64,000 bases of DNA from contig NZ_AP022609.1 in the NCBI RefSeq assembly GCF_010729485.1, forward strand, positions 62,001 through 126,000, read 5' to 3'. Under the pieces are notes generated by a model. It saw only the letters and a program-made list of their open reading frames with translations, was not told the origin of the DNA and did not search any database. Both the position numbers and the translations under genes were made by a program. This document shows, one piece after another, positions 7,930 through 34,939 of this stretch. How positions within the stretch are numbered: the stretch's first letter is position 1; each line of letters starts with the position of its first letter. The stretch is from Mycolicibacter hiberniae (GTDB taxonomy: Bacteria > Actinomycetota > Actinomycetes > Mycobacteriales > Mycobacteriaceae).

Positions 7930-7943
7930 ATGAGTATGCTGAA
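7930..7943 (+). promoter_or_regulatory. Operator-like element A of the island regulon
   Basis: ATGAGTATGCTGAA lies between the divergent aldehyde dehydrogenase (start 7906) and GntR/FCD regulator (start 8002). It matches five other elements in the window at the invariant AGT and CT positions. TATGCT within it fits a TANNNT -10 for the plus-strand gene. It is the weakest match of the six (GCT instead of ACT in the right half). Confidence 0.6.
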
Positions 7944-8001
7944 TTAGATATTCGGGTTCGGGGCGGGCGTGGTGCGCCGCGGACGGCCAAGGAGTGCTGA
8001 T

Positions 8002-8799
8002 ATGGCTACGGTGAATCCGGGCGCTGGTTCGACAAAGCTGGTGCGGGCGCCCAAGACGGCCGAGATCATCGCCGATCATCTGCGCAGCAGCATTGTCCGG
8101 GGTGTCCTGAAGGACGGTGACGCGCTGCCCACCGAGGTGGAACTGGTCAAGCAGTTCGGCGTCTCGCGGCCCACCCTGCGGGAGGCGTTTCGCATTCTGG
8201 AGAGCGAATCGCTCATCGTCGTCCGGCGCGGGTCGCGGGGCGGGGTTCTGGTGTCCGCACCGGAAACCTCCGTGGCGGCCCGCAACTTCGGCTTGCTCCT
8301 GCAGATGTCGGGAACCACGCTGGCCGACCTCTACGAGGCCCGCAAGGTCTTCGAGCCCGCCGCAGCGCAGATGCTGGCGCAACGTGCCACACCGCACGAC
8401 GTCGAGGACCTCAAGGCTGCGGCCGCGGCGCTGGCGGCGCTGGTCGCCCGGGGAACCGACGCCGCCGACTTCGGAGAGTGGTCGGCTGCCACCTTCAGGT
8501 TCCACGACCTGATCCTGGAACGGGCCGGCAACAACACGATCGCTCTGGTCGGCGCCGTGCTGCGCGAAGTCGTCACCCGCCATATGGCCCGGGTGATGGC
8601 GGTGGCCGGGGGCAATCACGACGAGATCGAGAAGCAGTTCAAGCGCACCATCCGGACCTTCAACAAGTTCACCGCGCTGATCGAAGCGGGCAAAGGCGTT
8701 GAGGCAAAAGAGCTCTGGAGCGCGCACATGGAACGGGCCGGCCGCAACATGCTGTGGGGCGGACTCGCCAGGGAAACCGTGCTCGACCTCTACGTCTGA
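8002..8799 (+). CDS. GntR family (FadR/FCD subfamily) transcriptional regulator
   Basis: 265 residues; the ATG at 8002 is chosen because AAGGAG lies 7 nt upstream, while the upstream in-frame GTG has none. The N-terminal winged helix-turn-helix spans about residues 14-80 (ADHLRSSIVRGVLKDGDALP, then GVSRPTLREAFRILESESL). The C-terminal all-helical FCD ligand domain covers about 95-245. FCD regulators commonly bind acyl-CoA or carboxylic acids and repress catabolic genes. Divergent from the aldehyde dehydrogenase operon; candidate regulator of the AGT-NN-NCT elements. Confidence 0.9.
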   Translation: MATVNPGAGSTKLVRAPKTAEIIADHLRSSIVRGVLKDGDALPTEVELVKQFGVSRPTLREAFRILESESLIVVRRGSRGGVLVSAPETSVAARNFGLLLQMSGTTLADLYEARKVFEPAAAQMLAQRATPHDVEDLKAAAAALAALVARGTDAADFGEWSAATFRFHDLILERAGNNTIALVGAVLREVVTRHMARVMAVAGGNHDEIEKQFKRTIRTFNKFTALIEAGKGVEAKELWSAHMERAGRNMLWGGLARETVLDLYV

Positions 8800-8806
8800 C
8801 ATCGCA

Positions 8807-10015
8807 TCAGCCCAGGGCGCCGTCGTCGCGCAGGGAGTTGATCGCATCCCAGTCCAGCCCGAACTCCAGTAGGATCTCCTCGGTGTGCTGTCCGAGTTCG
8901 GGCGCGGGACCGACCGGAACGTTGGGGGTCTCGTCGAATTGGTAGGGCGGGGCGACCAGTCGGAAGGGGCGGTCGTCTGCTCCGGTGACCGTGGGCAGGT
9001 AGCCGTTGTCGGCCACCTGCGGGCTTTCGCACACCTCGTCGAAGGTGGCCGCGGCCGACCATACTCCGGAGAACCCCGCGAGCAGCTGCTTCCACTCCGC
9101 CAGGGTCCGCGAGCCGAAGACCTTGTCGAGTTCGGCGACGCAGGCCGAGCGGTTGGCGAAGCGCTGCGCGGTATTGCCGAATCGCTCGTCGGCGGCCAAG
9201 TCGGTGCGCCCGACGATTTCGCACAATTCGGGCCAGAACCGATCGGATTGCAGGCACACCAGATTCAGCCACCGATCATCGGCCGTGCGGTAGCTGTTGA
9301 CGATCGGATTCGGCGCTTCCCGGCGGTCGGTGCGGGGGATCTCGCTGACGCCGACCGCGCTGGCGGCCAGATCCGGACCCATTGTCCACATGCCGGTGTT
9401 CAGCAGTGACACATCGACCACCCCGCCCTGGCCGGTCCGCTCGCGGCGGAACAGGGCCATGGCGATCGCACCGGCGATCGCGCTGGAGCCCTGCAGGTCG
9501 AAGAACGCGGCCGGCTGCGCGGCCGGCGCGTCGGCGCCGGGTGCGGTGAGCTTGTGCTGGACGCCGGCCGCCGACCATGCCGCGGCGGCATCGAATCCGC
9601 CGGCGTCCGCCTGGGACCCGCGGCTGCCCCATCCGGAACCGCGGGCGTAGATGAGGCGCTCGTGGCCGGCGCGCAGGTCTTCCGCCTCGATGCCGAGCTT
9701 GGCGCGCACCTTGGGCAGGTAACTGGTCAAGAACACGTCAGCGGTGGCGGTCAACTGGCGAAGTGTCGCGATGCCACTGGGGCGGGACAGGTCCAGGGTG
9801 ATGCTGCGCTTGCCGCGGTTGGGCACCTGCAGGAAGGGATTGGGCAGCGACGTGTCGCCGTTGAGCGAATTCAGCAGGCCCCGTTGGGGGTCACCGGTCG
9901 GCGGCTCGACCTTGATCACGTCGGCACCGAGGTCGGCCAGAATGGCGCCGGCGCCCGGGACGAATGTCCACGCGGCCACCTCGATGACGCGTACGCCCTC
10001 GAACGGTCGGATCAC
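8807..10015 (-). CDS. CaiB/BaiF (family III) CoA-transferase
   Basis: 402 residues from the GTG at 10015, with AGGAGA 7 nt upstream. The start PFEGVRVIEVAAWTFVPGAGAILADLGADVIKVE is diagnostic of the family. The conserved Asp expected to carry the acyl anhydride sits in FFDLQGSSAIAGA. The protein would move CoA between an acyl-CoA donor and a carboxylic acid, or could act as a racemase (Amacr-like members share the fold). It is downstream of the DUF7064/7065-like gene and probably co-transcribed with it from element B. It converges with the GntR gene with only 7 nt between stops. Confidence 0.88.
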   Translation of the reverse strand: MIRPFEGVRVIEVAAWTFVPGAGAILADLGADVIKVEPPTGDPQRGLLNSLNGDTSLPNPFLQVPNRGKRSITLDLSRPSGIATLRQLTATADVFLTSYLPKVRAKLGIEAEDLRAGHERLIYARGSGWGSRGSQADAGGFDAAAAWSAAGVQHKLTAPGADAPAAQPAAFFDLQGSSAIAGAIAMALFRRERTGQGGVVDVSLLNTGMWTMGPDLAASAVGVSEIPRTDRREAPNPIVNSYRTADDRWLNLVCLQSDRFWPELCEIVGRTDLAADERFGNTAQRFANRSACVAELDKVFGSRTLAEWKQLLAGFSGVWSAAATFDEVCESPQVADNGYLPTVTGADDRPFRLVAPPYQFDETPNVPVGPAPELGQHTEEILLEFGLDWDAINSLRDDGALG

Positions 10016-10042
10016 TTGGTTTCTCCTGGTCTAGGTTTCGCG

Positions 10043-11137
10043 TCAGTGCGTGGCGTGCAGGGCTTCGAGCATGCGAGCGAAATGTTGTGGATGCCAGATG
10101 TCTTGGTCTTCACCCCAGCCGATCTCACCGTCGAGGTCCCACCGCATGAGCGCGGTGCTGCCGCCGCCGCGCTCGCAGATGTGGCTGACCGTGAACCCCT
10201 CGGCGTCCATCACCCGGCCGGTGACGTCCACCAGATGCACGTGCATGTGCGAACTCCAGCCGGTGACCGGGTCGCGGTAGTTCTTCATCCGGCTGGCCGA
10301 TTTGTCCAACCGCTCGAAACGGCCGTCCCGCAACAGCCAGCCGTGGTTCAGCGGAGACCAACCCTCGGCGTCGCCCTCGGCGACCCGTGCGAAGGCCAGA
10401 AAGCCGGTGCGCGGTCCGCAATGGCCGAAGATGTACTGGATCCGGCCGCGGCCGCGTTCTCGCTCGATCTCCCGCCAGCGTGCACCGCCGGGGTGCAGGA
10501 CCCGGTCGCCCTGGGCCGCCGGGGCGGTTCGCGGGGGCCGGGGACCGCCCCGCGGGGCCCAGGTCCGGTCCCGGATCGAGTAGCAGTCGATCGGAATCCG
10601 CTCCCCGTTCAGCACCAGCTCGCCGGTGACGTGGCCGAGCTGATCGAAGTGGGTGTGCGTCATGAACGGCGGTTCGCCGGGGGTGAATCGGCGCGGGTCG
10701 TGGGTGCCCTCGAAGGTGAGCCGCACCGCGAAGTCGGACTCCGGGTCCTGGTACTCGATGCGGTATTCGCGCATGGGGCGCACCATCTGCACACTGAACC
10801 CGCCGCCGGGCAGCACGATGTCGCGCAGATCCAGGCTGGTGTCGGCGAGGGGGACATCGCTGCGCATCCGGAAATACCGCAGATGCTCCGGGGTCGCACC
10901 GGCTGGATCCCACACGTAGACCCGCCATGTCGCGGTGCCGCGGCTGGTGTGGAACTCCGCGTGCAGCCACCCGCCGATCTTGCGTTCGGGGATGTTGAAC
11001 GACCACCAGGTGGTCTCGGTCCAGAACGGGTCGGCCGGGCACGGGTGGAAGTCGTCGTCGGCCGGGGTGAACGGGCAATCCGCGCTAACGGCTTGCGGTG
11101 TGGCTCCCAACGTGTCCGCTGACGGCCTGGTCGACAT
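10043..11137 (-). CDS. Lipocalin-like DUF7064/DUF7065-type protein of unknown function
   Basis: 364 residues, start ATG at 11137. No signal peptide or membrane segment. Rich in Trp, Arg and beta-prone stretches (WWSFNIPERKIGGWLHAEF, FEGTHDPRRF, and a central RDRTWAPR motif). The pattern recalls the two-half beta-barrel family that includes AttH and CrtC-like hydratases, annotated in mycobacteria as DUF7065/DUF7064; this placement is from memory of the family and is tentative. An enzymatic role is not established. It has its own operator element B just upstream and is followed at 27 nt by the CoA-transferase. Confidence 0.6.
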   Translation of the reverse strand: MSTRPSADTLGATPQAVSADCPFTPADDDFHPCPADPFWTETTWWSFNIPERKIGGWLHAEFHTSRGTATWRVYVWDPAGATPEHLRYFRMRSDVPLADTSLDLRDIVLPGGGFSVQMVRPMREYRIEYQDPESDFAVRLTFEGTHDPRRFTPGEPPFMTHTHFDQLGHVTGELVLNGERIPIDCYSIRDRTWAPRGGPRPPRTAPAAQGDRVLHPGGARWREIERERGRGRIQYIFGHCGPRTGFLAFARVAEGDAEGWSPLNHGWLLRDGRFERLDKSASRMKNYRDPVTGWSSHMHVHLVDVTGRVMDAEGFTVSHICERGGGSTALMRWDLDGEIGWGEDQDIWHPQHFARMLEALHATH

Positions 11138-11154
11138 AGCCGTGATCCTAACTG

Positions 11155-11168
11155 AAAAGGATACTGAT
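11155..11168 (-). promoter_or_regulatory. Operator-like element B of the island regulon
   Basis: On the minus strand this reads ATCAGTATCCTTTT, lying 18-31 nt upstream of the start at 11137. TATCCT within it is a plausible -10, which would give a leader of about 15 nt containing GGAT near the start. It separates the thioesterase gene from the DUF7064/7065-like gene and suggests that the latter starts a new transcription unit. Confidence 0.68.
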
Positions 11169-11222
11169 TTAGTAGTTAATTGCTGCGATCAGCCAGCCGG
11201 ACGACCCGCGCCGGACGCCTGC

Positions 11223-12062
11223 CTACGGTGCCCCGCCGGTGGCGTCGAACAGCGACTCCTGGGTCAGGCTGGCCACCAGAGCGCCGCGTTGGTCGTAGAT
11301 CTGACCGGCGTAGACGCCGCGGCCGCCCGAGGCGGCCAGCGGATGCAGATCGAGCAGGAGCCAGTCGTTGGGATCGCCGCGCCGGTGCAGCCACACCGCA
11401 TGATCGATGCTCGGCAGCAGCCCCACCCGTTCGATCTCCGGTGCCCGGGACAGCCCGGTGCACAGATCCGAGACGAACACCACCCCGCAGGCCCGGGCAT
11501 TCGGATCGTCGTCCAGCGGCTCGCGGATGCGGACCCAGAACTGCGCCGGCCACCGGTACCAGGGTTGGCCGCCGTCGGGCACCCGCGCTTCCAGGTCGAA
11601 GGTGCGCGAGGCATTGAGTTCGTAGGTGACCAGCTCGGCCGGAGGCGGCACGGCGGGGATCTCGACGGCCTGGTACTCGGTGGCGTCATCTTTGGGACGC
11701 GAGAAGGAGCATCCCATCGAGAAGATCGCGGTGGTGCCCTGATACGCGGTGACGCGCCGGCCCGAGTAGCGCCCGCCATCGCGATCGCGGTCCACGCGCA
11801 GCTCCACCGGCCTGCCGGCATCGCCGGCCGCCAAGAAGTACCCGTGCAGCGAGTGCGCCACCCGGTCGCCGGGCACCGTGAGGCTGGCGGCGCGCAGCGC
11901 CTGGGCGGCGATCTGGCCGCCGTAGATGGCGCGCCGACCGGTCACCGCCACCGGGTCGGCAAGGAAGCGGTCGTGCGGAAGCCGCCGCAGCGTCAACAGC
12001 TCGGCCACCGCTGTGGGAGTGACCTGCTCCCCGTCGAACACCTCACGCGAGGTGAGGTTCAC
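11223..12062 (-). CDS. tesB: Acyl-CoA thioesterase II (TesB-like double hotdog)
   Basis: 279 residues from the GTG at 12062, which overlaps the thiolase stop (GTGA). Contains the TesB N-terminal hotdog (GRRAIYGGQIAAQALRAASLTV, SLHGYFLAAGD) and C-terminal hotdog with PSIDHAVWLH (Asp) and SLTQESLF (Gln), which match members of the TesB catalytic Asp-Thr/Ser-Gln set. It would hydrolyse acyl-CoA esters, perhaps to release CoA from dead-end intermediates of the pathway. Last gene of the operon that starts with the acyl-CoA synthetase at 16506. Confidence 0.88.
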   Translation of the reverse strand: MNLTSREVFDGEQVTPTAVAELLTLRRLPHDRFLADPVAVTGRRAIYGGQIAAQALRAASLTVPGDRVAHSLHGYFLAAGDAGRPVELRVDRDRDGGRYSGRRVTAYQGTTAIFSMGCSFSRPKDDATEYQAVEIPAVPPPAELVTYELNASRTFDLEARVPDGGQPWYRWPAQFWVRIREPLDDDPNARACGVVFVSDLCTGLSRAPEIERVGLLPSIDHAVWLHRRGDPNDWLLLDLHPLAASGGRGVYAGQIYDQRGALVASLTQESLFDATGGAP

Positions 12063-13231
12063 AGCAACTCGATGATCGTCGCATTCGCCATCCCGCCGCC
12101 CTCGCACATCGTCTGCAGGCCGAAACGTATTCCTTCGCGCCGCATGCGATGCACCATCGTGGTCATCAGGCGTGCGCCGGAGGCGCCCAGCGGGTGGCCC
12201 AGCGCAATCGCCCCGCCGCTCGGGTTGGTCGCCGGCTCGACGGCCCCGGTCTCCTTCAGCCAGGCCAGCACCACGGGGGCGAACGCCTCGTTGACCTCGA
12301 ACGTGCCGATATCCGATATGGCCAGGCCGGCCCGGTCGAGGGCCTTGGCGGTGGCGGGTATCGGCGCGGTCAGCATCATCACCGGGTCGGAACCGGCGAG
12401 CACTGCGGTATGGATGCGGGCCCACGACGCGAGCCCCAGTGCGCGGGCCCGCTCGGAGGTGGTGATGAGCAGTGCCGCGGACCCGTCGCTGATCTGCGAC
12501 GAGCTGCCCGCGGTGATCACGCCGTCGGCGGCGAAGGCGGGCTTCAACCCGGCGAGTTTCTCGGCCGTGGTGTCCGGCCGGACCCCGCCGTCGGTGTCCA
12601 CAGTCGTTCCGTCGGGCAGGGCCACCGGAACGATCTCCTCGGCGAACTCGCCGGCTTGGATGGCCCGCGCCGCGCGGTGGTGCGAACCGGCGCTGAACTC
12701 GTCGATCTGCGAACGCGACAGCGACCAGCGCTCAGCGATCATTTCGGCGCCGAGGCCCTGGTGGAAGTGCTTGACGCCGTAGCGTTCCCGCTCGGATTCG
12801 GTCATCGGATCGCCCACGTCGACGCCGCGCGAGGCGCCCATAGGCACCCGGCTCATCATCTCCACCCCGCCGGCCACGGCGACGTCGTACTGGCCGGAGA
12901 TGACCCCCGCCGCCGCGAAGTGCAGCGCCTGCTGGCTGGATCCGCACTGCCGGTCCACCGTGGTGCCGGGCACGTCCTCGGGCCAGCCGGCACTGAGCAC
13001 CGCGTGCCGGGCGATGTTGCCGGTCTGCTCGCCGACCTGGCTCACACAGCCCCAGATGACGTCGTCGACGACCGCGGGATCGATTCCGGTGCGATCGGCC
13101 AGGGCCCGCAGCACCTGCGCGGACACTTCGCCGGCGGCGATGCCCGACAGCGCGCCGTTGCGGCGCCCGACCGGCGTGCGCACCGCGCCGACGATCACCG
13201 CGTCGCGGCCGGGTGTCTGGTGTGTGGTCAC
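12059..13231 (-). CDS. Acetyl-CoA C-acyltransferase (thiolase, FadA-like)
   Basis: 390 residues from the GTG at 13231, preceded by GAGGAG at 5 nt. It is a complete catalytic thiolase: nucleophile Cys96 in DRQCGSSQQA, NEAFA, His346 in GGAIALGHPLGASGAR, and Cys376 in CEGGGMANA. It would carry out the final thiolytic step of beta-oxidation. The full set of catalytic residues distinguishes it from the thiolase-like protein at 27242. The gene overlaps tesB downstream and follows the lipid-transfer/thiolase-like gene by about 50 nt. Confidence 0.93.
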   Translation of the reverse strand: MTTHQTPGRDAVIVGAVRTPVGRRNGALSGIAAGEVSAQVLRALADRTGIDPAVVDDVIWGCVSQVGEQTGNIARHAVLSAGWPEDVPGTTVDRQCGSSQQALHFAAAGVISGQYDVAVAGGVEMMSRVPMGASRGVDVGDPMTESERERYGVKHFHQGLGAEMIAERWSLSRSQIDEFSAGSHHRAARAIQAGEFAEEIVPVALPDGTTVDTDGGVRPDTTAEKLAGLKPAFAADGVITAGSSSQISDGSAALLITTSERARALGLASWARIHTAVLAGSDPVMMLTAPIPATAKALDRAGLAISDIGTFEVNEAFAPVVLAWLKETGAVEPATNPSGGAIALGHPLGASGARLMTTMVHRMRREGIRFGLQTMCEGGGMANATIIELL

Positions 13232-13282
13232 GGGGACTCCTCTGCCCTGGGGGATGCTGTCTGGGTCGATGGGTGCGGGGAG

Positions 13283-14488
13283 TCAGCCGGCCTTTTCCAG
13301 AATGTGGATGCCGCAGGTGGAACCCAGGCCGATGACATGCGCCAAACCGACACGGGCGCCGTCGATCTGGCGCGGTCCGGCCTCGCCGCGCAGGTGCTGG
13401 CAGATCTCCCACACGTTGGCGATGCCGGTGGCCGCAATCGGGTGGCCCTTGGATTGCAGGCCGCCGGAGACGTTGACGGGAAGCTTGCCGTCGCGCCAGG
13501 GTGCGCCGCTTTCGAAGAAGTCGACCGCGCCGCCGGGCGGGCACAGGCCCAGGTTGTCGTAGTGCACCAGTTCGGCGGTGGCGAAGCAGTCGTGCAGCTC
13601 CACGAGGTCCAGATCGGCGGGTCCGATCCCGGCCTGCTCGTAGGCCTGGGTTGCGGCGTTACGGGTGACGGTGTTGACGTTGGGAAGTACCTGGCATGCC
13701 GGTTCCCAGGGATCGGTGGTCAGCACCGAGGCGCTGACCTTGACTGCCCGCCGGCGCTGCTCGGCCGAAAGTGATTGGAGCCGTTCGTCGCTGACCACTA
13801 CGGCCGCGGCCGCGCCGTCGCAGTTGGCCGAACACATCGGGCGGGTGTTCGGATAGGCGATCATGACATCGTTCATGATCTCCTGCGCGGACATGGCTTT
13901 GGTGTGGGCCGCCAGCGGGTTCAGCGTGGAATGGGAGTGGTTCTTCTCGCTGATCCGGGCGAACAGTTCCAGCGGTGTTCCGGCGTAGTCGTGGCGATGC
14001 AGGTACTGCATGCCGATCTGGGCGAACACCCCGGGCATCAGGTCGGTCCCGACGCGGCCCTCCAGTCCGGTGACCGCATCCAGCCGGCCCTGTGGCTGCC
14101 AGGTCTTGGGTCCGGTGCCGGCCTTGCCGGAGGCGCCGAGCATCCCGGCGCCGGCGAGCTTCTCGGCGCCCACCGCCAGCCCGAGGTGGGCTTCACCGGC
14201 CTTGATCGCCAGCATGGCGGTGCGCAGCGCTGTGGCACCGGTGGCGCAGGCGTTGGCCACGTTGAACACCGGGATGCCGGTCTGGCCGAGCTGCTTCTGG
14301 ACGGCCTGCCCGTAGCCGGGTGGGCCGAACAGGTTGCCGGCGGCCAGCACGTCGATGTCGGCGACGGTGACCCCGGCGTCGGCCAGGGCAGCGCGGGCGG
14401 CTTCGACGCCGAGCCCCACCCCGTCGCGATCCGGCCGCTTGCCGAACTTGGTCATCGAGATGCCCAGAATCCAGAGGTCACCGTTCAC
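13283..14488 (-). CDS. Thiolase-superfamily lipid-transfer protein (SCP-x/Ltp type), partner of DUF35
   Basis: 401 residues from the GTG at 14488, overlapping the DUF35 gene stop by 4 nt. It resembles SCP2/SCP-x thiolases and steroid-pathway Ltp proteins: NVANACATGATALR with Cys81 in the nucleophile position, HDCFATAEL, SGGLQSKGHPIAATG with the His, and GLGSTCGIHIL with the second Cys. Retention of the thiolase residues suggests a thiolytic or condensing reaction rather than the repurposed aldolase chemistry of Ltp2. Coupling to a DUF35 protein suggests a heteromeric complex, as in steroid side-chain degradation. Confidence 0.88.
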   Translation of the reverse strand: MNGDLWILGISMTKFGKRPDRDGVGLGVEAARAALADAGVTVADIDVLAAGNLFGPPGYGQAVQKQLGQTGIPVFNVANACATGATALRTAMLAIKAGEAHLGLAVGAEKLAGAGMLGASGKAGTGPKTWQPQGRLDAVTGLEGRVGTDLMPGVFAQIGMQYLHRHDYAGTPLELFARISEKNHSHSTLNPLAAHTKAMSAQEIMNDVMIAYPNTRPMCSANCDGAAAAVVVSDERLQSLSAEQRRRAVKVSASVLTTDPWEPACQVLPNVNTVTRNAATQAYEQAGIGPADLDLVELHDCFATAELVHYDNLGLCPPGGAVDFFESGAPWRDGKLPVNVSGGLQSKGHPIAATGIANVWEICQHLRGEAGPRQIDGARVGLAHVIGLGSTCGIHILEKAG

Positions 14489-14913
14489 CGCAGGTCCTCG
14501 CTTTCGTTCGCCGGCTCGAATCCGAACCCGATCGCGGTACGGCCCTCGTCGTCGGTACCGATCGGAAAGGTGGTCAGGCGCAGGGGCATGCCCAGGCGGA
14601 CCGCATCCACCGTGGGATCGACGTTGACGACGTTGGCCCGCACCGAGATGCCGGCGCAGTCCACCACGCCGGCCACGTAGGGCACGGGCACGCCGGGGGC
14701 GGCCACTTCGACCACGGTGAAGGTCTCCAGGGTTCCGGTGGGCGAAACCGGCTCGGTGGTGAAGTCAGCGCCGAAACACGACGCGCAGGCGTCGCGCCGG
14801 TCGAAGTAGTACGCGCCGCAGGTGACGCATACCGTCGCGACCAGCTTCGGGGGGTCCTCCAGGCTCAGATACCCGACTATCGGGATGGGTTTCCCAGCAG
14901 CGGTCTCGCTCAT
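14485..14913 (-). CDS. DUF35 OB-fold / zinc-ribbon acyl-CoA-binding protein
   Basis: 142 residues, ATG at 14913. A four-Cys rubredoxin-like zinc ribbon (CVTC at about residues 29-32, CASC at 43-46) precedes an OB-fold domain (VSPTGTLETFTVVEV, PYVAGVVDCAG). DUF35 proteins bind thiolase-superfamily partners, as ChsH2 binds Ltp2. Direct overlap with the following thiolase-like gene supports a one-to-one complex. Sits 30 nt downstream of the acyl-CoA synthetase gene. Confidence 0.88.
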   Translation of the reverse strand: MSETAAGKPIPIVGYLSLEDPPKLVATVCVTCGAYYFDRRDACASCFGADFTTEPVSPTGTLETFTVVEVAAPGVPVPYVAGVVDCAGISVRANVVNVDPTVDAVRLGMPLRLTTFPIGTDDEGRTAIGFGFEPANESEDLR

Positions 14914-14943
14914 GGCGTCGCGGTCCTTTCGATCGGGTTCGGT

Positions 14944-16506: not shown

Positions 16507-16532
16507 CGACCCTCCACGCTCGAAATAGCTAG

Positions 16533-16546
16533 AACAGTATCCTCAA
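16533..16546 (-). promoter_or_regulatory. Operator-like element C of the island regulon
   Basis: The plus strand reads AACAGTATCCTCAA, so the element is inverted relative to the synthetase gene it precedes (start 16506). On the minus strand TACTGT about 30 nt before the start fits a -10. It lies in the 82-nt gap between the duplicated regulator's stop and the synthetase start, in AT-rich sequence that stands out locally. Confidence 0.66.
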
Positions 16547-16588
16547 TTAAGGGCCAGGGGAAGGCCCGGGTGCAGCCCGGGGGCCGGG

Positions 16589-18860: not shown

Positions 18861-18864
18861 AGAA

Positions 18865-21102: not shown

Positions 21103-21103
21103 C

Positions 21104-24569: not shown

Positions 24570-24603
24570 AGAAGAATCCCGATAAGCAAGGAGCGCTGGA
24601 CCG

Positions 24604-27197: not shown

Positions 27198-27202
27198 TGT
27201 TT

Positions 27203-27216
27203 AATAGTACACTCAT
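27203..27216 (+). promoter_or_regulatory. Operator-like element E, divergent promoters
   Basis: AATAGTACACTCAT on the plus strand (ATGAGTGTACTATT on the minus) has both palindromic halves intact. It lies in the 44-nt gap between the divergent DUF35 (start 27197) and thiolase-like (start 27242) genes. It contains TACACT as a plus-strand -10 and TACTAT as a minus-strand -10. Confidence 0.74.
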
Positions 27217-27241
27217 TTATGACATTGGCGACGGAGGTTTC

Positions 27242-28387
27242 ATGATCGAAGCGGCGCGGCCCGCTCCGGTGATCTCGGGGACCGGGATCTCGGGCATCGG
27301 GAGGCGGACCGGCATCCCCGCCGCGGACATGACGGTGCAGGCCTGCACGGCGGCCATCGCCGACGCCGGCCTCAAGCCCGCCGACATCGACGGGATCATC
27401 ACCCTCGGTGACACCCCGGCCGCCGAGGCCGCCGCCCTGTTGGGGATCGCCGATCCCGGTGATTTCGGCACGGCCTTCGGGTCCGCGGGACTGCTCACCC
27501 CGGTGGTGCAGGCCGCCGAGGCGGTCGCCTCGGGCCGGCTCCGGCATGTCCTGGTCTACCGCACGGTGCAGATGATCGGTGGCACCGCGCAAGCGCCGAA
27601 GAAGGGCGCCAAGCTCCCCGACGCACTGTCGGACGTCGGTTACCTGCTTGCCGCCCACGCCTATTCGGCAGCCAACTGGCTGGCGCTGCATTGCCGGCGG
27701 CACATGGATCTCTACGGCACCACCAAGGAGCAGCTCGGCTGGGTGGCGATCAACGCGCGCCGCAACGCCGCCCGCAACCCGCTGGCGGTGTACCGCGAGC
27801 CGATCACCATGGACGACTACCTCAACGCCAGGCCGGTCTCCACTCCGCTGGGCCTGCTGGACTGTGACGTCCCGGTCGACGGATCCATCGCGCTGGTGAT
27901 CTCGGTGGCCGACCACCGCCGCAACGCCCCCCACGGGGCGGTGGCCATCGAGGCATCCGGGGGGTCCTCCGGGGCGGGCGGATGGTTCAGCCGTGCCGAC
28001 TATCCGCAGATGGCCGCTACCGACGCGGCAGCCCAGATGTGGTCGAAGACCTCGCTCAAGCCCGCAGATGTCGACCTCGCCGAACTCTACGACGGGTTCA
28101 GTTTCCTCACCCTGGCCTGGCTGGAAGCGCTCGGCTTCTGCGCGCGCGGCGAGTCCGGACCGTTCGTCGACGGCGGCCAGCGCATCGCGCTCGACGGCGA
28201 GCTGCCGCTGAACACCTACGGCGGGCAACTGTCCGCCGGACGTATGCACGGCTACTGGGTGCTGCATGAGGCATGTCAGCAGCTGCGCGGGTGCGCCGGC
28301 CCGACGTCTCTGGCCACCCGGCCGGAGGTGGCCGTGGTCTCCGCCGGCGGCGGACCGATCGCAGGATGTGTGCTGCTGTCATGCTGA
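27242..28387 (+). CDS. Thiolase-superfamily protein lacking the nucleophilic Cys (Ltp2-like aldolase candidate)
   Basis: 381 residues from the ATG at 27242, with GGAGG 5 nt upstream; the long frame upstream of this ATG is not coding. Thiolase fold, but the nucleophile region reads FGTAFGSAGLLTPVVQ, with Ser81 or a neighbour in place of Cys. The C-terminal half has Tyr283 in AELYDGF and Tyr326 in NTYGGQLSAGRMHG where thiolases have Asn/Glu and His motifs. Loss of the Cys with active-site tyrosines is how the steroid side-chain aldolase Ltp2 is described, so a retro-aldol role with the divergent DUF35 partner is likely. First gene of a five-gene operon. Confidence 0.85.
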   Translation: MIEAARPAPVISGTGISGIGRRTGIPAADMTVQACTAAIADAGLKPADIDGIITLGDTPAAEAAALLGIADPGDFGTAFGSAGLLTPVVQAAEAVASGRLRHVLVYRTVQMIGGTAQAPKKGAKLPDALSDVGYLLAAHAYSAANWLALHCRRHMDLYGTTKEQLGWVAINARRNAARNPLAVYREPITMDDYLNARPVSTPLGLLDCDVPVDGSIALVISVADHRRNAPHGAVAIEASGGSSGAGGWFSRADYPQMAATDAAAQMWSKTSLKPADVDLAELYDGFSFLTLAWLEALGFCARGESGPFVDGGQRIALDGELPLNTYGGQLSAGRMHGYWVLHEACQQLRGCAGPTSLATRPEVAVVSAGGGPIAGCVLLSC

Positions 28388-29937
28388 CCCCGGCCACCGA
28401 GACGTTGGCGGACATACCCGGCGAGATGGTCCGCGCCGCAGCGCAGCACGGCGCCACCGCAGTGCAGGTGCACAGCGACGTCAACCCCTACTCGGGTTCG
28501 CTCGGTGAGATCTTCGGGGAAAGCTGCCGGGTGGCCGCGTCCCTGGCGGCGCTCGGTATCGGGCCCGGTGACGTGGTGGCCCTGCAGTTGCCCAACTGGC
28601 GGGAGTGCTTCACCGCGCATGCCGGGATCTGGCTGGCGGGGGCGGTCGCGCTGCCCATCGTGCCGATCTACGGTCCCGCCGAAGTCGCCTTCATCGCCCG
28701 GCAATCCGGGGCCCGGGCGTTGATCCTGGCCCGCGAGAACCGCAACCGCGACGCCGCCGCGACCCTGGCCGCGCTCGCCGACGTGCCGAGCCTGCAGCAC
28801 CGCATCCTGGTCGGCGCTGCGCTGCCGGGAACACTGTCCTATGTCGAGCTCGCCGCTGCCGCCGCACCCGGCTTCACCCCGGTCGTCGACGACGACCCGC
28901 ACCGGCGCTGCCTGCTGGTGTACACCTCCGGCACCACCGCCGAGCCCAAGGGTGTGCAGCACACTCATGCCAGCCTGCTCGGCGAGGTGGCATCGCTGGA
29001 CCAGATGCGTTCCTCCGGGCCAGATCTGACCACCCTGTCGGTCTTCCCCTCCGGACATATCGCCGGCACACTCGGCATCCTGCGGATGCTGTGCCGGGGC
29101 AGCAGCACCATCGCGATGGATGCCTGGAACCCCGAGAAAGCCGCGACCCTCATCGATCGTTACGCGGTGGGCTCCTCCGGCGGTGCGCCCATTCACCTCA
29201 GCGGGATACTCGACATCGCGGAGCGCGACCGGCTGGACCTGTCCAGTCTGCGGGAATACACCACCGGCGCCGCCGGGGTGGCCGGCGCCCTGATCCGCCG
29301 AGCCGACGGGTTCGGCATCGGGGCGTTCCGGTGCTATGGCTCCTCAGAGCATCCGACGATCAGCTCGGGACGCCCGGAGGATCCGCTGCACAAGCGGGCC
29401 GACACCGACGGCCGGATCTGTCCGGGCACCGAGGTCAGAATCGTCGATGACGACGGCCGCGACCTGGCCATCGGCGAGGCCGGCGAGATTTTGACCCGCG
29501 GCCCCGAAGTGTTCAGCGGGTACACCGATTCGGAGTTCACCCGCGCCGGCATGGTCGACGGATGGTTCCGTACCGGAGATGTCGGGCGCCTCGATGCCGA
29601 CGGATACCTCACCATCACCGACCGCAAGAAGGACATCATCGTCCGAGGCGGAGAGAACATCTCCTCCAAGGAAGTCGAGGACGTGCTGAGCGCGCATCCG
29701 GCGATCGCCGAGGCCGCCGCGGTCGGTGCACCTGATGAGACTTACGGCGAGCGGGTCTGCGCCTTCGTGGTCGTCAACCCCGGCCGCAGATTCGACCTCG
29801 CCGACGCCGCAGCATATTTCGCCGACTGCGGCTTGGCGCGGCAGAAGACCCCGGAGCGCATCGTGGTGGTTTCCGAACTGCCGCGCACGGCGAGCGGAAA
29901 GATTCAAAAGCACGTTCTCCGAGAACAACTCAGATAG
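28381..29937 (+). CDS. Acyl-CoA synthetase (AMP-forming, FadD-like)
   Basis: 518 residues from the ATG at 28381, overlapping the thiolase-like stop by 7 nt. Motifs: YTSGTTAEPKGVQHTH (a Thr-Ala-Glu variant of the P-loop), CYGSSEHPT, GDVGRLDADGYLTITDRKKDII and PRTASGKIQKHVLRE with the catalytic Lys. It belongs to a different branch from the other two synthetases of the island (cyclohexanecarboxylate/feruloyl-like DRKKD...GGENIS). It would activate a distinct acid intermediate, perhaps after cleavage by the aldolase encoded just upstream. Confidence 0.92.
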   Translation: MLTPATETLADIPGEMVRAAAQHGATAVQVHSDVNPYSGSLGEIFGESCRVAASLAALGIGPGDVVALQLPNWRECFTAHAGIWLAGAVALPIVPIYGPAEVAFIARQSGARALILARENRNRDAAATLAALADVPSLQHRILVGAALPGTLSYVELAAAAAPGFTPVVDDDPHRRCLLVYTSGTTAEPKGVQHTHASLLGEVASLDQMRSSGPDLTTLSVFPSGHIAGTLGILRMLCRGSSTIAMDAWNPEKAATLIDRYAVGSSGGAPIHLSGILDIAERDRLDLSSLREYTTGAAGVAGALIRRADGFGIGAFRCYGSSEHPTISSGRPEDPLHKRADTDGRICPGTEVRIVDDDGRDLAIGEAGEILTRGPEVFSGYTDSEFTRAGMVDGWFRTGDVGRLDADGYLTITDRKKDIIVRGGENISSKEVEDVLSAHPAIAEAAAVGAPDETYGERVCAFVVVNPGRRFDLADAAAYFADCGLARQKTPERIVVVSELPRTASGKIQKHVLREQLR

Positions 29938-29953
29938 GCGGAAGGGAACCGAG

Positions 29954-30808
29954 ATGGGCAGAGTAGACGGAAAAGTCGTCCTGGTCACCGGCGGGGCGCG
30001 CGGTCAGGGCCGCCGGCACGCCGTGCGGCTGGCCGAGGAAGGCGCCGACATCATCTTGTTCGATGTCTGTGCCGATATCGAACACAACGAGTACGCGCTG
30101 GCCCGCCCTGAGGACCTGGACGAGGCCTGCCGAGAGGTCGAGAAGTCCGGCCACCGGGTGACTGCGGCCGCCGTGGACGTCCGCGACCGCGCCGCCGTCG
30201 AGGCCGCGCTGGCCGCAGCGGTCGCCGAGATGGGCAAGCTCGATGTGGTGGTCGCCAATGCCGGCATCTGCCCGCTGGGGCTCAACCAGCCGATCGGCGC
30301 CTTCGCGAACGCCTTCGACGTCGACTTCGTCGGGGTCGTCAACACCGTGCACGCGGCACTGCAGTACCTGACGGCCGGAGCGTCGATCGTGACCGTCGGT
30401 TCGGTGGCGGGGCTCTTGGCGGAGAAGGCGGGGCCCGGTGCGGCGATGGGCCCGCAGGGATCCGGCGGTGCCGGCTACAACCTGGCCAAGCAGTTCATCG
30501 ACAAGTACACCCTGGCGCTGGCCGCGCAACTGTCACCGCTGTCCATCCGTGCCAACGTGGTGCATCCGACCAATGTCAACACCCCCATGCTGCACAACGA
30601 GGGGATGTACAAGATGTTCCGCCCGGATCTGGAGCACCCCGGCGTGGACGACGCCCTGCTCACCTTCCCGATGATGCAAGGCATGCCCATTCCGTACGTG
30701 GAGCCCGAAGACGTCTCGCACGCGGTGTGCTACCTGGCCTCTGACGAGTCCCGATATGTCACCGGGGTGCAACTCAAGGTGGATGCCGGCGCCAGCCTGA
30801 AGTTCTAA
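29954..30808 (+). CDS. Mycofactocin-coupled SDR family oxidoreductase
   Basis: 284 residues. The N-terminus GKVVLVTGGARGQGRRHAVRLAEEGADIILFDVC is the signature of mycofactocin-dependent SDRs (GARGQGR with HAVRLAEEGADI). Further motifs are ANAGIC, a catalytic-site insertion rich in Gly (GPGAAMGPQGSGGAGYNLAK) holding the Tyr-x-x-x-Lys, and TPMLHNEGMYKMFRPD. It would oxidise an alcohol with a tightly bound nicotinamide that is recycled by mycofactocin. Preceded by GGAAGGGAA; third gene of the operon from element E. Confidence 0.92.
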   Translation: MGRVDGKVVLVTGGARGQGRRHAVRLAEEGADIILFDVCADIEHNEYALARPEDLDEACREVEKSGHRVTAAAVDVRDRAAVEAALAAAVAEMGKLDVVVANAGICPLGLNQPIGAFANAFDVDFVGVVNTVHAALQYLTAGASIVTVGSVAGLLAEKAGPGAAMGPQGSGGAGYNLAKQFIDKYTLALAAQLSPLSIRANVVHPTNVNTPMLHNEGMYKMFRPDLEHPGVDDALLTFPMMQGMPIPYVEPEDVSHAVCYLASDESRYVTGVQLKVDAGASLKF

Positions 30809-30818
30809 AGAAGCCGGC

Positions 30819-31826
30819 ATGAGGTGGGGAATGCCCTGGCCCGGGGCTGATCTCGCGCAGCGTTGCGAGCAGGCGGGCGCTGTCGCCTTCTGTGCCGGCG
30901 AGTTCGCCGACACCAGTGCGTATGTGACGGCTGCCGAAATGGCGCGATCCACCACCACGGCCAGGACGGGGCCGGGCATCGCCTATGCGTTTGCCCGGTC
31001 ACCGTTCGTGCACGCCTCTTCGGTGCGCCACCTCAACCGGATTGCGCCCGGCCGGGTCTTTTTGGGGCTGGGGGCGGGAACGGCACGGATGAACCGCGAC
31101 TGGTTCGGCGTCGACTCCAGCCACCCCGCTCGCCGGATGGCCGAACTCGTCAGCTGCATCCGCGGTTTCCTGCAGGCCGAGAATGACCAGAAGATCGTGT
31201 TCGACGGCGACTTCTACTCGTTGAACACCCACATCCGGGCACCGGTCATGGGCCCCATCGACGTACCGATCCTGCTGGGAGCCTTCAACGTCCATATGAT
31301 CCGCTCCGCCGGGAGCGTGGCGGACGGGGTACTGGGCCACCCGCTGTTCACCGACAGGTGGTGGACCGACGTGGTCGATCCGCAACTGGCGATCGGCGCT
31401 GCACGGCAGGGCCGGGATCCAGCCGAGCTGAAGCGCTGGGGCTGGATCACCACCGTGATCGACAACGAAGACCCGCAGCGCGCGGTTCAGGACGCCAAGC
31501 GCCAGATCGCGTTCGAGCTCACCGTCCGGACCTACGACTCGCTGGTGGACCTGCACGGCTGGCAGGACGAAGTCGCGGCGATCCGAGCCGAGTTCGCCAA
31601 GGGCAACGCCCGCGAGCTGGGCAAGCACGTCAGCGATGACATGTTGTGGGCGATGGCGGTGTGCGGCGACACCGCCCAGGCCCGCGAGATGCTGGCAGCC
31701 CGGCGGCGGCTGCCCGACATCGGCTTCTTCTCGCCGCCAGGCTTTCTCGTCAGTCCGCGGCGCCGACAGCGCTACGGAGAACAGGTGATCCAGGCGTTTG
31801 CCGAGAATGGAGAAGTTCTGACATGA
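30819..31826 (+). CDS. LLM class F420-dependent oxidoreductase
   Basis: 335 residues, ATG at 30819. TIM-barrel luciferase-like fold: FCAGEFADTSAYVTAAEMA, TARTGPGIAYAFARSPFVHASSVRHLNRIAPGRVFLGLGAGT and VPILLGAFNVHMIRSAGSVADGVLGHPLF. The pattern fits F420-using LLM enzymes such as dehydrogenases and reductases rather than flavin monooxygenases. The substrate is unknown. It is located between the mycofactocin SDR and the AveC-like gene and overlaps the latter (ATGA). Confidence 0.88.
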   Translation: MRWGMPWPGADLAQRCEQAGAVAFCAGEFADTSAYVTAAEMARSTTTARTGPGIAYAFARSPFVHASSVRHLNRIAPGRVFLGLGAGTARMNRDWFGVDSSHPARRMAELVSCIRGFLQAENDQKIVFDGDFYSLNTHIRAPVMGPIDVPILLGAFNVHMIRSAGSVADGVLGHPLFTDRWWTDVVDPQLAIGAARQGRDPAELKRWGWITTVIDNEDPQRAVQDAKRQIAFELTVRTYDSLVDLHGWQDEVAAIRAEFAKGNARELGKHVSDDMLWAMAVCGDTAQAREMLAARRRLPDIGFFSPPGFLVSPRRRQRYGEQVIQAFAENGEVLT

Positions 31827-32845
31827 CCACAAGTTCTGTCACCACCGATGGCGACACGATGAAACAGCTTTGGGTGGGTGCCAAGGAGTCGCCGCCCATC
31901 GTCTGGCTGGCGCGGCTCGGTGCGGTGTTCGTGGTGTTTCAGCTCTACGTGTATCTGCGCTGGATCTTCTCGGACAGCTTCGCGCCCACACCGGCTGGAC
32001 CCGACCCGATCCCGGGATCCTCGATGTTCTGGATCCGGTTCTGGGAGATCGGCTGTGTGCTGCTCGGTATCGGGCTCATCTGGTGGATCGTGCGCAAAAT
32101 GCGGGCCGAGCGGGAGATTCCGCCGATCGGGATCTTCGTGGTGGCCTGGCTGCTGGCAGCCTGGCAGGACCCCGGCGTCAACGCGACCCGTCCGGTCTTC
32201 GCATACAACAGTGGCTTCTTCAACAGGGGAACCTGGGGCGAGTTCATTCCCGGGTGGGTGAGCAAGGGCGCGGAGAATCCCCAGCCCCTGATCTACTTCC
32301 TGGCCAGCTACATCGTGTTGACCCCGCTGGCGATCATGGGCATCGACAAACTGATCGGCCGGCTGCGCACCGCGGCGCCCCGGCTGAACAGGGCGGGCGT
32401 GCTGGCGACGATGGTGCTGCTGTTCACCGTGCTGGACATCGTGCTGGAGCAGTACTTCCATCGCGTCGGCCTGTGGACCTACCTCCGCGTGGACGGTTCA
32501 TGGTCGATCTTCTCCGGCCACCTGTATCAGTTCCCCCTGTACGAAGGCGTTTTCTTCGGCGGCATCGTGAGCACGTTGTCCATCGCCATCTACTGCTTCC
32601 GGGACAAGGACGGCCGGATGATCACCGACGCCGGGATCGAGAAGCTGCGCAACAAGCGCATGGTCCCGCTGGTACGCATCCTGGCTCTGACCGGCGTGTT
32701 CAACGTGATCATGATGGTCTTCATGCTCGGCTTCAACCTGGTGAATCAGCACGCCGACACCCAACCGGCGCAAGACATCCCGAGTTACCTGCACCACGAT
32801 ATGTGCGGCCTGGGCCCGAATCCGCCGTGCCCGCCGCTACCGTGA
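31823..32845 (+). CDS. AveC-like (spirocyclase family) integral membrane protein
   Basis: 340 residues from the ATG at 31823. About seven hydrophobic segments are visible, for example IVWLARLGAVFVVFQLYVYL, FWEIGCVLLGIGLIWWIV and LVRILALTGVFNVIMMVFML. Conserved polar blocks lie between them (AWQDPGVNATRPVFAYNSGFF, EQYFHRVGLWTYLRVDGSWS). These match the AveC/spirocyclase family, whose founding member does spiroketal formation and dehydration in avermectin biosynthesis. A role in catabolism is not established; a membrane-embedded isomerase, hydratase or cyclase for a lipid intermediate is possible. Last gene of the operon from element E. Confidence 0.8.
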   Translation: MTTSSVTTDGDTMKQLWVGAKESPPIVWLARLGAVFVVFQLYVYLRWIFSDSFAPTPAGPDPIPGSSMFWIRFWEIGCVLLGIGLIWWIVRKMRAEREIPPIGIFVVAWLLAAWQDPGVNATRPVFAYNSGFFNRGTWGEFIPGWVSKGAENPQPLIYFLASYIVLTPLAIMGIDKLIGRLRTAAPRLNRAGVLATMVLLFTVLDIVLEQYFHRVGLWTYLRVDGSWSIFSGHLYQFPLYEGVFFGGIVSTLSIAIYCFRDKDGRMITDAGIEKLRNKRMVPLVRILALTGVFNVIMMVFMLGFNLVNQHADTQPAQDIPSYLHHDMCGLGPNPPCPPLP

Positions 32846-32852: not shown

Positions 32853-32885
32853 AGCTGGCAGGGCGGTCGGCTCCTGCCCGTCAGC
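32853..32885. terminator. Hairpin between convergent genes, possible bidirectional terminator
   Basis: GGCAGG (32857-32862) pairs with CCTGCC (32873-32878) across a 10-nt loop, with an outer GCTG/CAGC pairing interrupted by bulges. It sits between the AveC-like stop and the SDR stop. There is no U tract, as is common in mycobacteria, so activity is uncertain. Confidence 0.4.
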
Positions 32886-33771
32886 TTTCGCTCGTCGACT
32901 GACCCACGCCGATCTCGTGGAACATCAGGTTCTGCAACCGGTGCAGGGTGCGCGGTGCCACCGATTCGGCGGCCAAGTACATCGAACCCAGGGGGTTGTT
33001 GACCGCCCGGGGACGGCGCCTGATGGCGTCGATCAACATGTCGGCCGCCTGGTCGACGGTCAGCGAGGCGAAGCCGCTCCAATCGGTGGGGGCGATCATC
33101 TCGGTGTCGACGAGCGGCAGATGCACGTTGGTGAAGTGGACGCCGTCGCGCAGACTCTCGATCGCGGCGACGCCGAAGAAGGCGTCCAACGCCGCCTTGG
33201 AGCCGATGTACGCCGAGAACGTGGGCAGGTTCGACAACACCCCGATCGAGGAACTGTGCACGACGTGGCCGCTTCGGCGCCTGCGCATCTCGGGCAGCAG
33301 GCGCAGCGTCAGGCCCACGCCGGCCAGGTAATTGAGCCGCATCGTGCGCTCGTAGTCGTGCAGTCGGTGTTCGGATTCGGCGACCGAGCGCATGATGGAT
33401 CTGCCCGCGTTGCTCACGAAGACGTCCGGCGCACCGAAACGGTCGAGTACGGCCTGGGCGACCTCGTTGATGCCCTCCTCGGTGGACAGATCGCCGACCA
33501 CCGCGTGCGCCTTCCCGCCAGTGGCCTCGATCGACTGCACCAGACGGTCGAGTTCGTCGGCGCGCCGGGCCGTGACGACGGCTGTGGCCCCCGCGCCCGC
33601 GACCCGCTCGGCCAGCCGTTTGCCGATGCCGCTCGACGCGCCCGTGATGAGAACGACGCGACCGGAGACGCGCTCGGCCAGCGACGGGGTGCCCAACCGG
33701 GGAATAGGTACGGGCTTGGTCAGCACGTTGATCGACTGGCGCATGGCACGGCGTAGCGGATTCGGTGTCAT
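32881..33771 (-). CDS. SDR family oxidoreductase with extended C-terminus
   Basis: 296 residues from the ATG at 33771, with AAAGGA upstream; the longer open frame runs into the hydrolase gene and is not used. After about 35 residues of basic leader comes ITGASSGIG (Rossmann), SNAG and the catalytic SSSIGVLS...SAYIGSKAA. The C-terminal part (DMLIDAIRRRPRAVNNPLGSMY) resembles the SDR domain of mycobacterial fatty-acyl reductase-like proteins. It could reduce or oxidise a long-chain or cyclic substrate. Follows the hydrolase gene by about 20 nt, so both form the leftward operon from the 34.9-kb promoter region. Confidence 0.85.
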   Translation of the reverse strand: MTPNPLRRAMRQSINVLTKPVPIPRLGTPSLAERVSGRVVLITGASSGIGKRLAERVAGAGATAVVTARRADELDRLVQSIEATGGKAHAVVGDLSTEEGINEVAQAVLDRFGAPDVFVSNAGRSIMRSVAESEHRLHDYERTMRLNYLAGVGLTLRLLPEMRRRRSGHVVHSSSIGVLSNLPTFSAYIGSKAALDAFFGVAAIESLRDGVHFTNVHLPLVDTEMIAPTDWSGFASLTVDQAADMLIDAIRRRPRAVNNPLGSMYLAAESVAPRTLHRLQNLMFHEIGVGQSTSES

Positions 33772-33790
33772 ATCAGGGCAGATCCTTTGG

Positions 33791-34780
33791 TCAGGCAGCT
33801 GGTTGGGTGCCGGGTGTTGCCGCATGGAGTTCGTTGAGGTAGACGGCCGCGCGGCGCAGAGCGGCCATGCCCTCCGGCAGGATGTCGGCCAGGACCGGGA
33901 AGACGTGGATCTGACGGTCCCACAGTTCGAGGGTGGTTCGCACACCGTTGTCGGCCAGGTGCCGGGCGAAATCCACGGCGTCGGGCGCGACGAATTCCTG
34001 CGAGCCGACCTGGATGAGGGTGGCGGGCAGGCCGGTGACATCGGCGCACAGCAGGCTGGTGGTGGCTCCGATACCGTCGGCGCCACCGGCCCGCGACTCG
34101 ACCTTCGCCAGACTCCGGCACAGGGCGTTGTAGGCGCGGCGGCCGATCAACGCGTCCCGGTACCGCCCGCGACGGTGCGGTATGGGGGTGAAGTCCAGGC
34201 CCGGCGACCAGCACACCAGCCCGGCCGGTTTGCCGAGACTGCGCTGTCGCACGGTGATGGCGGTGGCGACGGACAGGAAGCCCCCCGCCGAGTCGCCGAC
34301 GATGCTGATGTCGCCGGCCTGGTAGCCCCGGCCGATCAGCCACTCGAAGGCTTCCGCACAGTCGCGTACCGAACTGCTGACCGGGTGGCGGGGGCTCTGA
34401 CGGTAATCCACCACCAGTGCGGTCTGACCGGTTTCGCGGACCAGGTGCGAGACCGCCCGGCGGTGGGTGTTGGGCCCCCCGACGTAGAAGGCCCCGCCGT
34501 GCAGGTACAGCAGGACATGGGGCGACCGGGGGCCGGCGGCCGGCCGGATGATCTCGGCGTACATCTCGCCGACACGCACCGGCTCGACGGTGACCCCGGA
34601 CAGTTTGGGCAGGCATTTGGCGGCGAGTTCGGCAACGGCGAACGGCCACGGGAGATCCAGGAGATGACCGCCGACGTACACCGCCGGCTTCACCAGTAGC
34701 TTGGCGGCTTTGCATACCGCACGGGCGCGGAGGCTTCTCCCGGCGACGAAGGAGATAGCCAACTCCTGGCCAGTCGTCAC
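33791..34780 (-). CDS. Alpha/beta hydrolase, hormone-sensitive lipase (Lip) family
   Basis: 329 residues from the GTG at 34780. HGGAF oxyanion motif, nucleophile Ser in GDSAGG, acid Asp in EFVAPDAVDFA and His in IHVFPVLADI: the complete HSL-family (LipN/LipR-like) triad. It probably hydrolyses an ester, which would fit as an entry step freeing the substrate or its acyl group. It has no signal peptide, so it is cytosolic. It is divergent from the small protein/synthetase operon, sharing the intergenic region with element F. Confidence 0.9.
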   Translation of the reverse strand: MTTGQELAISFVAGRSLRARAVCKAAKLLVKPAVYVGGHLLDLPWPFAVAELAAKCLPKLSGVTVEPVRVGEMYAEIIRPAAGPRSPHVLLYLHGGAFYVGGPNTHRRAVSHLVRETGQTALVVDYRQSPRHPVSSSVRDCAEAFEWLIGRGYQAGDISIVGDSAGGFLSVATAITVRQRSLGKPAGLVCWSPGLDFTPIPHRRGRYRDALIGRRAYNALCRSLAKVESRAGGADGIGATTSLLCADVTGLPATLIQVGSQEFVAPDAVDFARHLADNGVRTTLELWDRQIHVFPVLADILPEGMAALRRAAVYLNELHAATPGTQPAA

Positions 34781-34904
34781 GACGTGCTCCTTAACGCTGG
34801 GTTCCGCGTGGCGTCCGGGACCCCTTGCGCGAGAACGATCGAGCTGAAGTTATCAGACCTCTTCGGCCCGGGATCCGGCAGAATCACCCGAGACGCGTGT
34901 TGCC

Positions 34905-34918
34905 GGACCGGATACTAT
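34905..34918 (-). promoter_or_regulatory. Second, imperfect copy of the operator next to element F
   Basis: On the minus strand GATAGTATCC matches the left part of the consensus, but the right half is lost. Together with element F it forms an inverted repeat GGATACT (34910-34916) / AGTATCC (34929-34935), with centres 19 bp apart. That could allow cooperative binding at this divergent promoter pair. Confidence 0.4.
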
Positions 34919-34925
34919 CGAATAG

Positions 34926-34939
34926 ATCAGTATCCTATT
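34926..34939 (+). promoter_or_regulatory. Operator-like element F of the island regulon
   Basis: ATCAGTATCCTATT upstream of the 86-residue gene (start 34951). TATCCT (34931-34936) is a good -10, and an AGGAGG ribosome site at 34940-34945 follows directly, so the leader would be short. It lies in the 170-nt gap with the divergent hydrolase gene. Confidence 0.7.

Follow-up and report, generated by a model that had tools for sequence, protein, structure and literature searches.

Regulons in which one repressor controls many operons, mce genes among them, are known from the KstR/Mce4 sterol system, whose repressor belongs to the TetR family and reads operators of another type, and a fused double TetR repressor, Mce3R, controls an mce operon. 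For the FadR subfamily of GntR regulators, operators with a 2-nt spacing between GT and AC are described for several groups (PMC4494728). Here we analyze a stretch of 64,000 nucleotides from Mycolicibacter hiberniae (RefSeq assembly GCF_010729485.1, contig NZ_AP022609.1, positions 62,001 to 126,000; G000:C1:62001-126000 in our numbering of a genome that is one contig of 4.40 Mb), hereafter called the window. A preliminary description of this DNA had claimed one 14-bp element in six intergenic regions, with invariant AGT and CT, and had tied the genes behind it into one large regulon, with two GntR-FCD regulators to be tested for binding. We find that five of the six copies belong to a longer, 22-bp element, which is most likely read by one of these regulators, a tandem double GntR-FCD protein, and not by both.

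All six strings are present where they had been placed. A test matrix was built solely from sites in other species (G012, G027 and G039), and with it the elements at 11151, 16529, 18861, 27199 and 34922 (operators 2 to 6, Table 1) score 29.0-32.9; their leave-one-out scores are 21.1-28.8. In 100 dinucleotide shuffles of the window, the best score per shuffle had a mean of 9.6 and a maximum of 17.4. The copy at 7930 (element 1) scores 16.9 with the other-species matrix and 13.1 once it is taken out of its own matrix, which is within the range of the shuffles. Besides the listed sites, the window contains three matches of score at least 9 (10.0-10.8), none of them at the PPOX or amidohydrolase promoters, as the preliminary description had also reported, and no site of score at least 14 was found in 520 kb of background (12 stretches of 20 kb from the same genome and 14 from other genomes). 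In the whole genome there are four exact copies of the 11-mer ATCAGTATCCT, two of them in the window, another 6.4 kb before it and the last at 3.77 Mb. The operator element (sites 2 to 6) is therefore real and beyond chance. Statistics on the core were dropped, as the window has no excess of the bare core AGTNNNCT (37 matches against 41.85 expected), so that only the full element is informative. For the distant tandem loci described below, a ranking of palindromic cores by enrichment likewise did not have AGT-N2-ACT in its first 12 places.

To see where the element stands in related genomes, 18 orthologous regions were compared (15 named loci plus G012, G027 and G039; L102 was left out, being the G027 contig). 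A site was counted when it scored at least 14 and its center lay from 350 bp upstream to 60 bp downstream of a gene start. The consensus over these regions is approximately TWRATCAGTRTMCTnWTT. The 49 distinct ortholog sites include 22 with AGTATCCT and 17 with AGTGTACT; A precedes GT in all 49, and conservation covers both flanks. The copy at 27203 reads better on the minus strand, as ATAAATGAGTGTACTATTAAAC. It can be seen that sites stand at the heads of operons: DUF7065 (14/14), FadD_a (17/17), the crotonase ECHa (15/16), DUF35b (11/11) and the thiolase-like gene (12/12). P450 has one in 13 of 15 regions; in both misses an SDR gene lies in between, and there the SDR gene has the site (2/2). 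Before the mce operon, both of the divergent acyl-CoA dehydrogenases have it in 5/5. In contrast to the heads, these internal genes of the same regions carry no site, although the second thiolase has one in 2/3: CoA transferase 0/15, thioesterase 0/12, ThiolC1 0/7, DUF35a 0/7, tandem regulator 0/18, dehydratase 0/15, second crotonase 0/15, APH 0/14, dual dehydrogenase 0/13, FadD_b 0/5, SDRb 0/3, luciferase-like oxidoreductase (LLM) 0/4, AveC 0/4 and yrbEA 0/3. Operator 6 may be lineage-specific, since the FadD_c orthologs in view lack a site (0/2), while its 14-mer, as a pattern match, recurs near the regulator in G265, G213 and G189.

Such a motif at gene starts might be nothing but a strong −10 promoter element of co-expressed genes. 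A TANNNT hexamer is indeed present on one or both strands of each of the six elements, and at the crotonase, whose ATG (18860) abuts operator 4, TACACT lies seven bases before the ATG, which we take to be a typical leaderless layout. A −10 element alone is nevertheless very improbable, because conservation reaches over both flanks of the operator, because the promoter-rich 520-kb background holds no site of score 14, and because matches cluster near one regulator.

The last point comes from whole genomes, which were scanned by consensus patterns. The pattern TWRAWNAGTRTMCT was searched for in 23 genomes: 18 contain a close tandem regulator, and in the other five only the cluster dehydratase has a homologue (54-57%). 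In the 18 genomes it gave 72 matches, and 68 of these are within 40 kb of the regulator; the four beyond are G265:C40:22563, G000:C1:3765145, G219:C2:137708 and G143:C46:255195. Four of the five genomes without a close regulator (G156, G172, G183 and G226) have no match, and G263 has two. The reversed pattern, as a control, gave three matches in all 23 genomes. Position-specific conservation, whole-genome specificity and the controls support one large regulon, and it is larger than had been stated, with an mce operon and a remote gene added. The two G263 matches, C1:1723367 and C1:1754734, have a second, partial tandem-regulator match no more than about 25 kb away.

The added copies lie outside the window. 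The first, at G000:C1:55590-55611, lies upstream of the mce operon, in the gap that separates two divergent acyl-CoA dehydrogenases; from strand, short gaps and gene order, the Mce genes at the start of the window appear to form one operon with this operator. The second, at G000:C1:3765138-3765159, lies 3.7 Mb from the cluster before the gene of a 468-residue protein (P0003) and scores 33.7. At the other 17 loci of P0003 relatives, the site scores 25.5, 16.4, 13.0 and 10.1 in four and less than 10 in the rest; the score of 25.5 is from G037, where the relatives search did not find the tandem regulator. P0003 matches no family in Pfam or NCBIfam, and its match in the Protein Data Bank, a rubber oxygenase (E 0.074), is at chance level. 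Operator-like sites were also seen outside the orthologous cluster at L180:4668 (G048, score 21.8) and L181:9860 (G098, score 19.3).

Which of the two GntR-FCD proteins reads the operator was judged from its co-occurrence with their homologues. In a search of named genomes, 77 loci of the tandem regulator were kept of 286 relatives, 16 close orthologs and 61 distant ones; the latter are from Streptomyces, Pseudonocardia, Nocardia, Frankia, Acidimicrobiia and others, mostly Actinomycetota, with one labelled Acidobacteriota. Sites are present in 15 of the 16 close loci. A site of score at least 16 was found in 42 of the 61 distant loci, while 100 column-permuted matrices gave a mean of 1.56 such loci and at most 7. 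The single GntR-FCD regulator behaves differently: around 26 of its homologues outside the cluster (1.5-kb flanks) there were two sites of score 14 and one of score 16, so that at the higher score the comparison is 42/61 against 1/26 loci. In 56 of the 61 distant loci no single-GntR homologue was detected outside the tandem gene. Less similar tandem loci of the same genus or order (L016-L041) have AGTGTACT in a palindrome such as CAATACAGTACACTCTATTG in 20 of 26 cases, and in 19 of those 20 a strict pattern finds A/T on both sides; with the window matrix, 12 of the 20 reach 14 and 8 reach 16. These results suggest that the tandem protein is most likely the reader of the operator. A further regulator encoded outside the examined loci is extremely improbable as the reader, given that the tandem regulator is the sole query gene in 61/61 distant loci (they were chosen for it) and the next commonest is in 38/61. 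Around the 61 distant regulators, the dehydrogenases, ligases and dehydratase of the cluster have homologues at 24-38 of the loci.

Several observations weigh against this assignment. Nineteen of the 61 distant loci lack a site of score 16, and the 61 are not independent, since many are Streptomyces loci of one arrangement. L113 has a close tandem regulator without the cluster, and no operator in 21 kb; L016, L036, L037, L038, L040 and L041 have no AGTGTACT palindrome. The looser pattern TNRAWNAGTRTNCT is unspecific, with matches in 56 of 100 relatives, 3-6 per cluster genome and 0-4 in the others; as it fails to tell cluster genomes from the rest, it was rejected as a marker. At P0003 a possible promoter falls upstream of the operator. 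Finally, the single GntR-FCD gene is also kept in the cluster, in 16 of the 18 orthologous regions, those with the upstream part in view. This protein, of the same class as the tandem regulator, might thus read the operator alone or together with it, and element 1, at its own promoter, does look related to the operator. Such a role is unlikely, because its homologues elsewhere have the site so rarely, because tandem loci carry the operator mostly with no single-GntR homologue nearby, and because element 1 has a conserved pattern of its own.

In a 17-sequence alignment of orthologous promoters, that pattern is approximately AGTANNNTNANTNAGNTNNT (T.AGTA...T.A.T.AG.T..T). The CT which had been called invariant is not kept there, and non-randomness holds for the full 22-bp element of the five other copies. 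An operator-type site of score at least 14 is present at the aldehyde dehydrogenase in 3/8 and at the single GntR gene in 6/16 orthologs. The strict element-1 form was found in 8 of the 16 named orthologous loci and in none of the 61 distant tandem loci, and once in the window against 0.11 expected; its shorter core was found in 0/26 single-GntR loci and 1/26 background stretches. Because of its score in the shuffle range and its different conserved pattern, element 1 is no safe member of the operator set. It is a distinct conserved element, probably another operator, and most simply one predicted to be read by the single GntR-FCD protein.

The tandem regulator shares 96% identity with its ortholog in Mycolicibacter engbaekii and 92% with that in M. 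nonchromogenicus. Of 7,997 scored proteins, 1,507 match it at E 1e-20; among the 120 matches listed, the named ones are FadR/GntR-family, GntR-family or FCD-domain regulators. An N-terminal GntR winged helix followed by FCD, the layout of the FadR subfamily, occurs twice per chain above Pfam cut-offs, and two units per chain, where the subfamily rule is one unit in a homodimer, are found in this family. In a tree of 43 N-terminal and 43 C-terminal halves, a single branch divides the two kinds (support 79/31; found in 100% of 200 bootstrap trees), as expected from one old duplication. Each half has three histidines (154, 199 and 221; 396, 446 and 468) that are invariant or nearly so in 43 proteins; such histidines are found in metal-binding FCD domains.

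Taken together, we consider it highly probable that the tandem GntR-FCD regulator has this element as its operator and would block the −10 region until released by an acyl-CoA or organic acid, and that the regulon joins Mce import to a P450/acyl-CoA pathway. As a fusion of two FadR-type units, the regulator may act as a single-chain pseudo-dimer; each of its two similar winged helices would then read one half-site of an imperfect, GT-N2-AC-spaced inverted repeat. The ATG of the DUF35 gene (27197) is one base from operator 5. As the operator overlaps −10 promoter sequences at the operon heads, bound regulator would block RNA polymerase, so that repression of the operons headed by the operator is expected, and with it autoregulation of the crotonase-tandem regulator operon. 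Release would be caused by an acyl-CoA or organic-acid intermediate of the pathway, and a response to the substrate, as had been proposed, is plausible. A fused protein with unlike halves could tolerate an asymmetric site; since the matrix itself chose the orientation of each site, the asymmetry is hypothetical.

As to the substrate, the gene content gives some hints. The Pfam scan covered 40 open reading frames (ORFs) within 1387-46235, three of them without a family, and six further proteins. Near the Mce genes there are acyl-CoA synthetases, crotonases, thiolases, DUF35 proteins, a P450, SDRs, a fused dual acyl-CoA dehydrogenase, a CoA transferase, an aldehyde dehydrogenase and the two GntR-FCD regulators (Table 1). 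Among the many acyl-CoA dehydrogenases matched by the two halves of the dual dehydrogenase are the partners Tcur3481 and Tcur3483; SCP2-type thiolases and a lipid-transfer protein are the matches of the thiolase; both DUF35 proteins have a ChsH2-type OB fold; and the P450 has its best matches in PksS and a vitamin D hydroxylase, with a CYP125 further down. No NCBIfam match reached the cut-off among the matches listed. By its gene families, the P450/acyl-CoA pathway with Mce genes resembles sterol side-chain degradation, for which the marks sought were a two-part acyl-CoA dehydrogenase, an Ltp-type aldolase with a DUF35 partner and a P450, with no assignment made; our best guess for the substrate is a steroid- or isoprenoid-like lipid. 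A plus-strand ORF at 26763-27245 was rejected as a gene, as the conserved gene is on the opposite strand.

Table 1. Features of the window and the remote gene (window positions unless stated otherwise).
Feature	Position	Strand	Basis or remark
Element 1, aldehyde dehydrogenase/GntR promoter	7926..7947	+	related look, separately conserved; conserved pattern at 7933-7952
Operator 2, head of DUF7065-CoA transferase	11151..11172	-	score 32.9; site in 14/14 orthologs
Operator 3, head of FadD-DUF35-thiolase-thiolase-thioesterase (minus-strand genes)	16529..16550	+	score 29.0; 17/17 orthologs
Operator 4, between crotonase-tandem regulator (minus) and SDR-P450-dehydratase-crotonase-APH-dual acyl-CoA dehydrogenase (plus)	18861..18882	+	score 31.9
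Operator 5, between DUF35 (minus) and thiolase-like-FadD-SDR-LLM-AveC-like (plus)	27199..27220	-	score 29.9
Operator 6, between alpha/beta hydrolase-SDR (minus) and small ORF-FadD (plus)	34922..34943	+	score 29.1
Mce genes (MlaD/Mce4_CUP1)	392..5032	+	Pfam; in-window part of the operon predicted to be headed by the operator at G000:C1:55590-55611
Aldehyde dehydrogenase	6434..7906	-	Pfam
Single GntR-FCD regulator	8002..8799	+	Pfam GntR and FCD; kept in cluster
Operator-2 operon: DUF7064/7065 protein (10043-11137), CoA transferase III (8807-10015)	8807..11137	-	Pfam
Operator-3 operon: AMP-binding ligase, DUF35 (ChsH2-type OB), thiolase-like, thiolase, acyl-CoA thioesterase	11223..16506	-	Pfam
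Tandem regulator, 477 aa, two GntR and two FCD domains	16589..18022	-	Pfam, orthologs/homologues, motif co-occurrence
Crotonase, same direction as tandem regulator	18027..18860	-	Pfam, start; ATG abuts operator 4
Operator-4 operon: SDR, P450, FAS1-type dehydratase, crotonase, APH-family, dual acyl-CoA dehydrogenase	18916..26766	+	Pfam
Dual acyl-CoA dehydrogenase	24604-26766		last of operator-4 operon
DUF35/ChsH2-type protein	26784..27197	-	Pfam, start; ATG adjoins operator 5
Operator-5 operon: thiolase-like, ligase, SDR, luciferase-like oxidoreductase (LLM), AveC-like	27242..32845	+	Pfam
SDR and alpha/beta hydrolase, divergent from operator 6	32881..34780	-	Pfam
Operator-6 genes: small ORF without Pfam family, AMP-binding ligase	34951..36740	+	Pfam
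P0003, 468 aa	L011 (G000:C1:3755001-3775000) 8735-10113	-	no Pfam family

In the open-access literature, no paper on fused GntR-FCD regulators or on the operator motif was found, and no stated function for the tandem regulator family. Rv3060c is named in an orthology table (PMC2018728) and in family lists (PMC9927256), with neither the fused architecture nor a function given in those parts. A motif found by eye has become a predicted operator-regulator pair valid across many genera, and a family for which no function was found in print, that of Rv3060c, gains a predicted binding site and targets. The tie between the Mce transporter and a set of enzymes also narrows the search for the substrate.

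Compared with the FadR subfamily (PMC4494728), the tandem regulator is alike in its GntR winged helix and FCD domain and in an A/T-rich inverted repeat around GT and AC, and the GT-AC half-sites proposed for the element fit the GT-N2-AC geometry of those operators. It is unlike in having two complete GntR-FCD units in one chain. The inverted repeat is imperfect, part of the sites having AGT-RT-ACT and others CC for AC (AGTATCCT), so that tandem operators are often non-palindromic, unlike those of the subfamily, and the operator boxes TKGT..ACMA given in PMC4494728 are replaced here by AGT..ACT. Rv3060c-type regulators are less similar tandem GntR-FCD proteins which likewise have a AGTGTACT palindrome nearby; the six less similar rows compared, and the same-genus list, show 34-39% identity over nearly full length. 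In M. montefiorense (L170), a dual acyl-CoA dehydrogenase gene and a thiolase-like gene are preceded by sites, and the thiolase-like gene is followed by the regulator; by gene order, this is presumably the Rv3060c locus. The Rv3060c type differs in its identity of about 35-37% and in a small locus at which no Mce operon was seen. With modest confidence, we suggest that fused double GntR-FCD proteins are an old family of single-chain pseudo-dimers, mainly in Actinomycetota. The family would have a single type of operator (core AGTRT[A/C]CT), largely conserved, often asymmetric and devoted to acyl-CoA catabolism, the asymmetry of the site mirroring the unlike halves of the protein. In mycobacteria, one branch would control an import and degradation regulon with Mce genes, and the Rv3060c-type branch a small dual-dehydrogenase/thiolase locus. 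The system of M. hiberniae resembles KstR/Mce4 in its one predicted repressor for many operons including mce genes, and Mce3R in its fused double regulator, but it differs from both in that these belong to the TetR family and read other operators.

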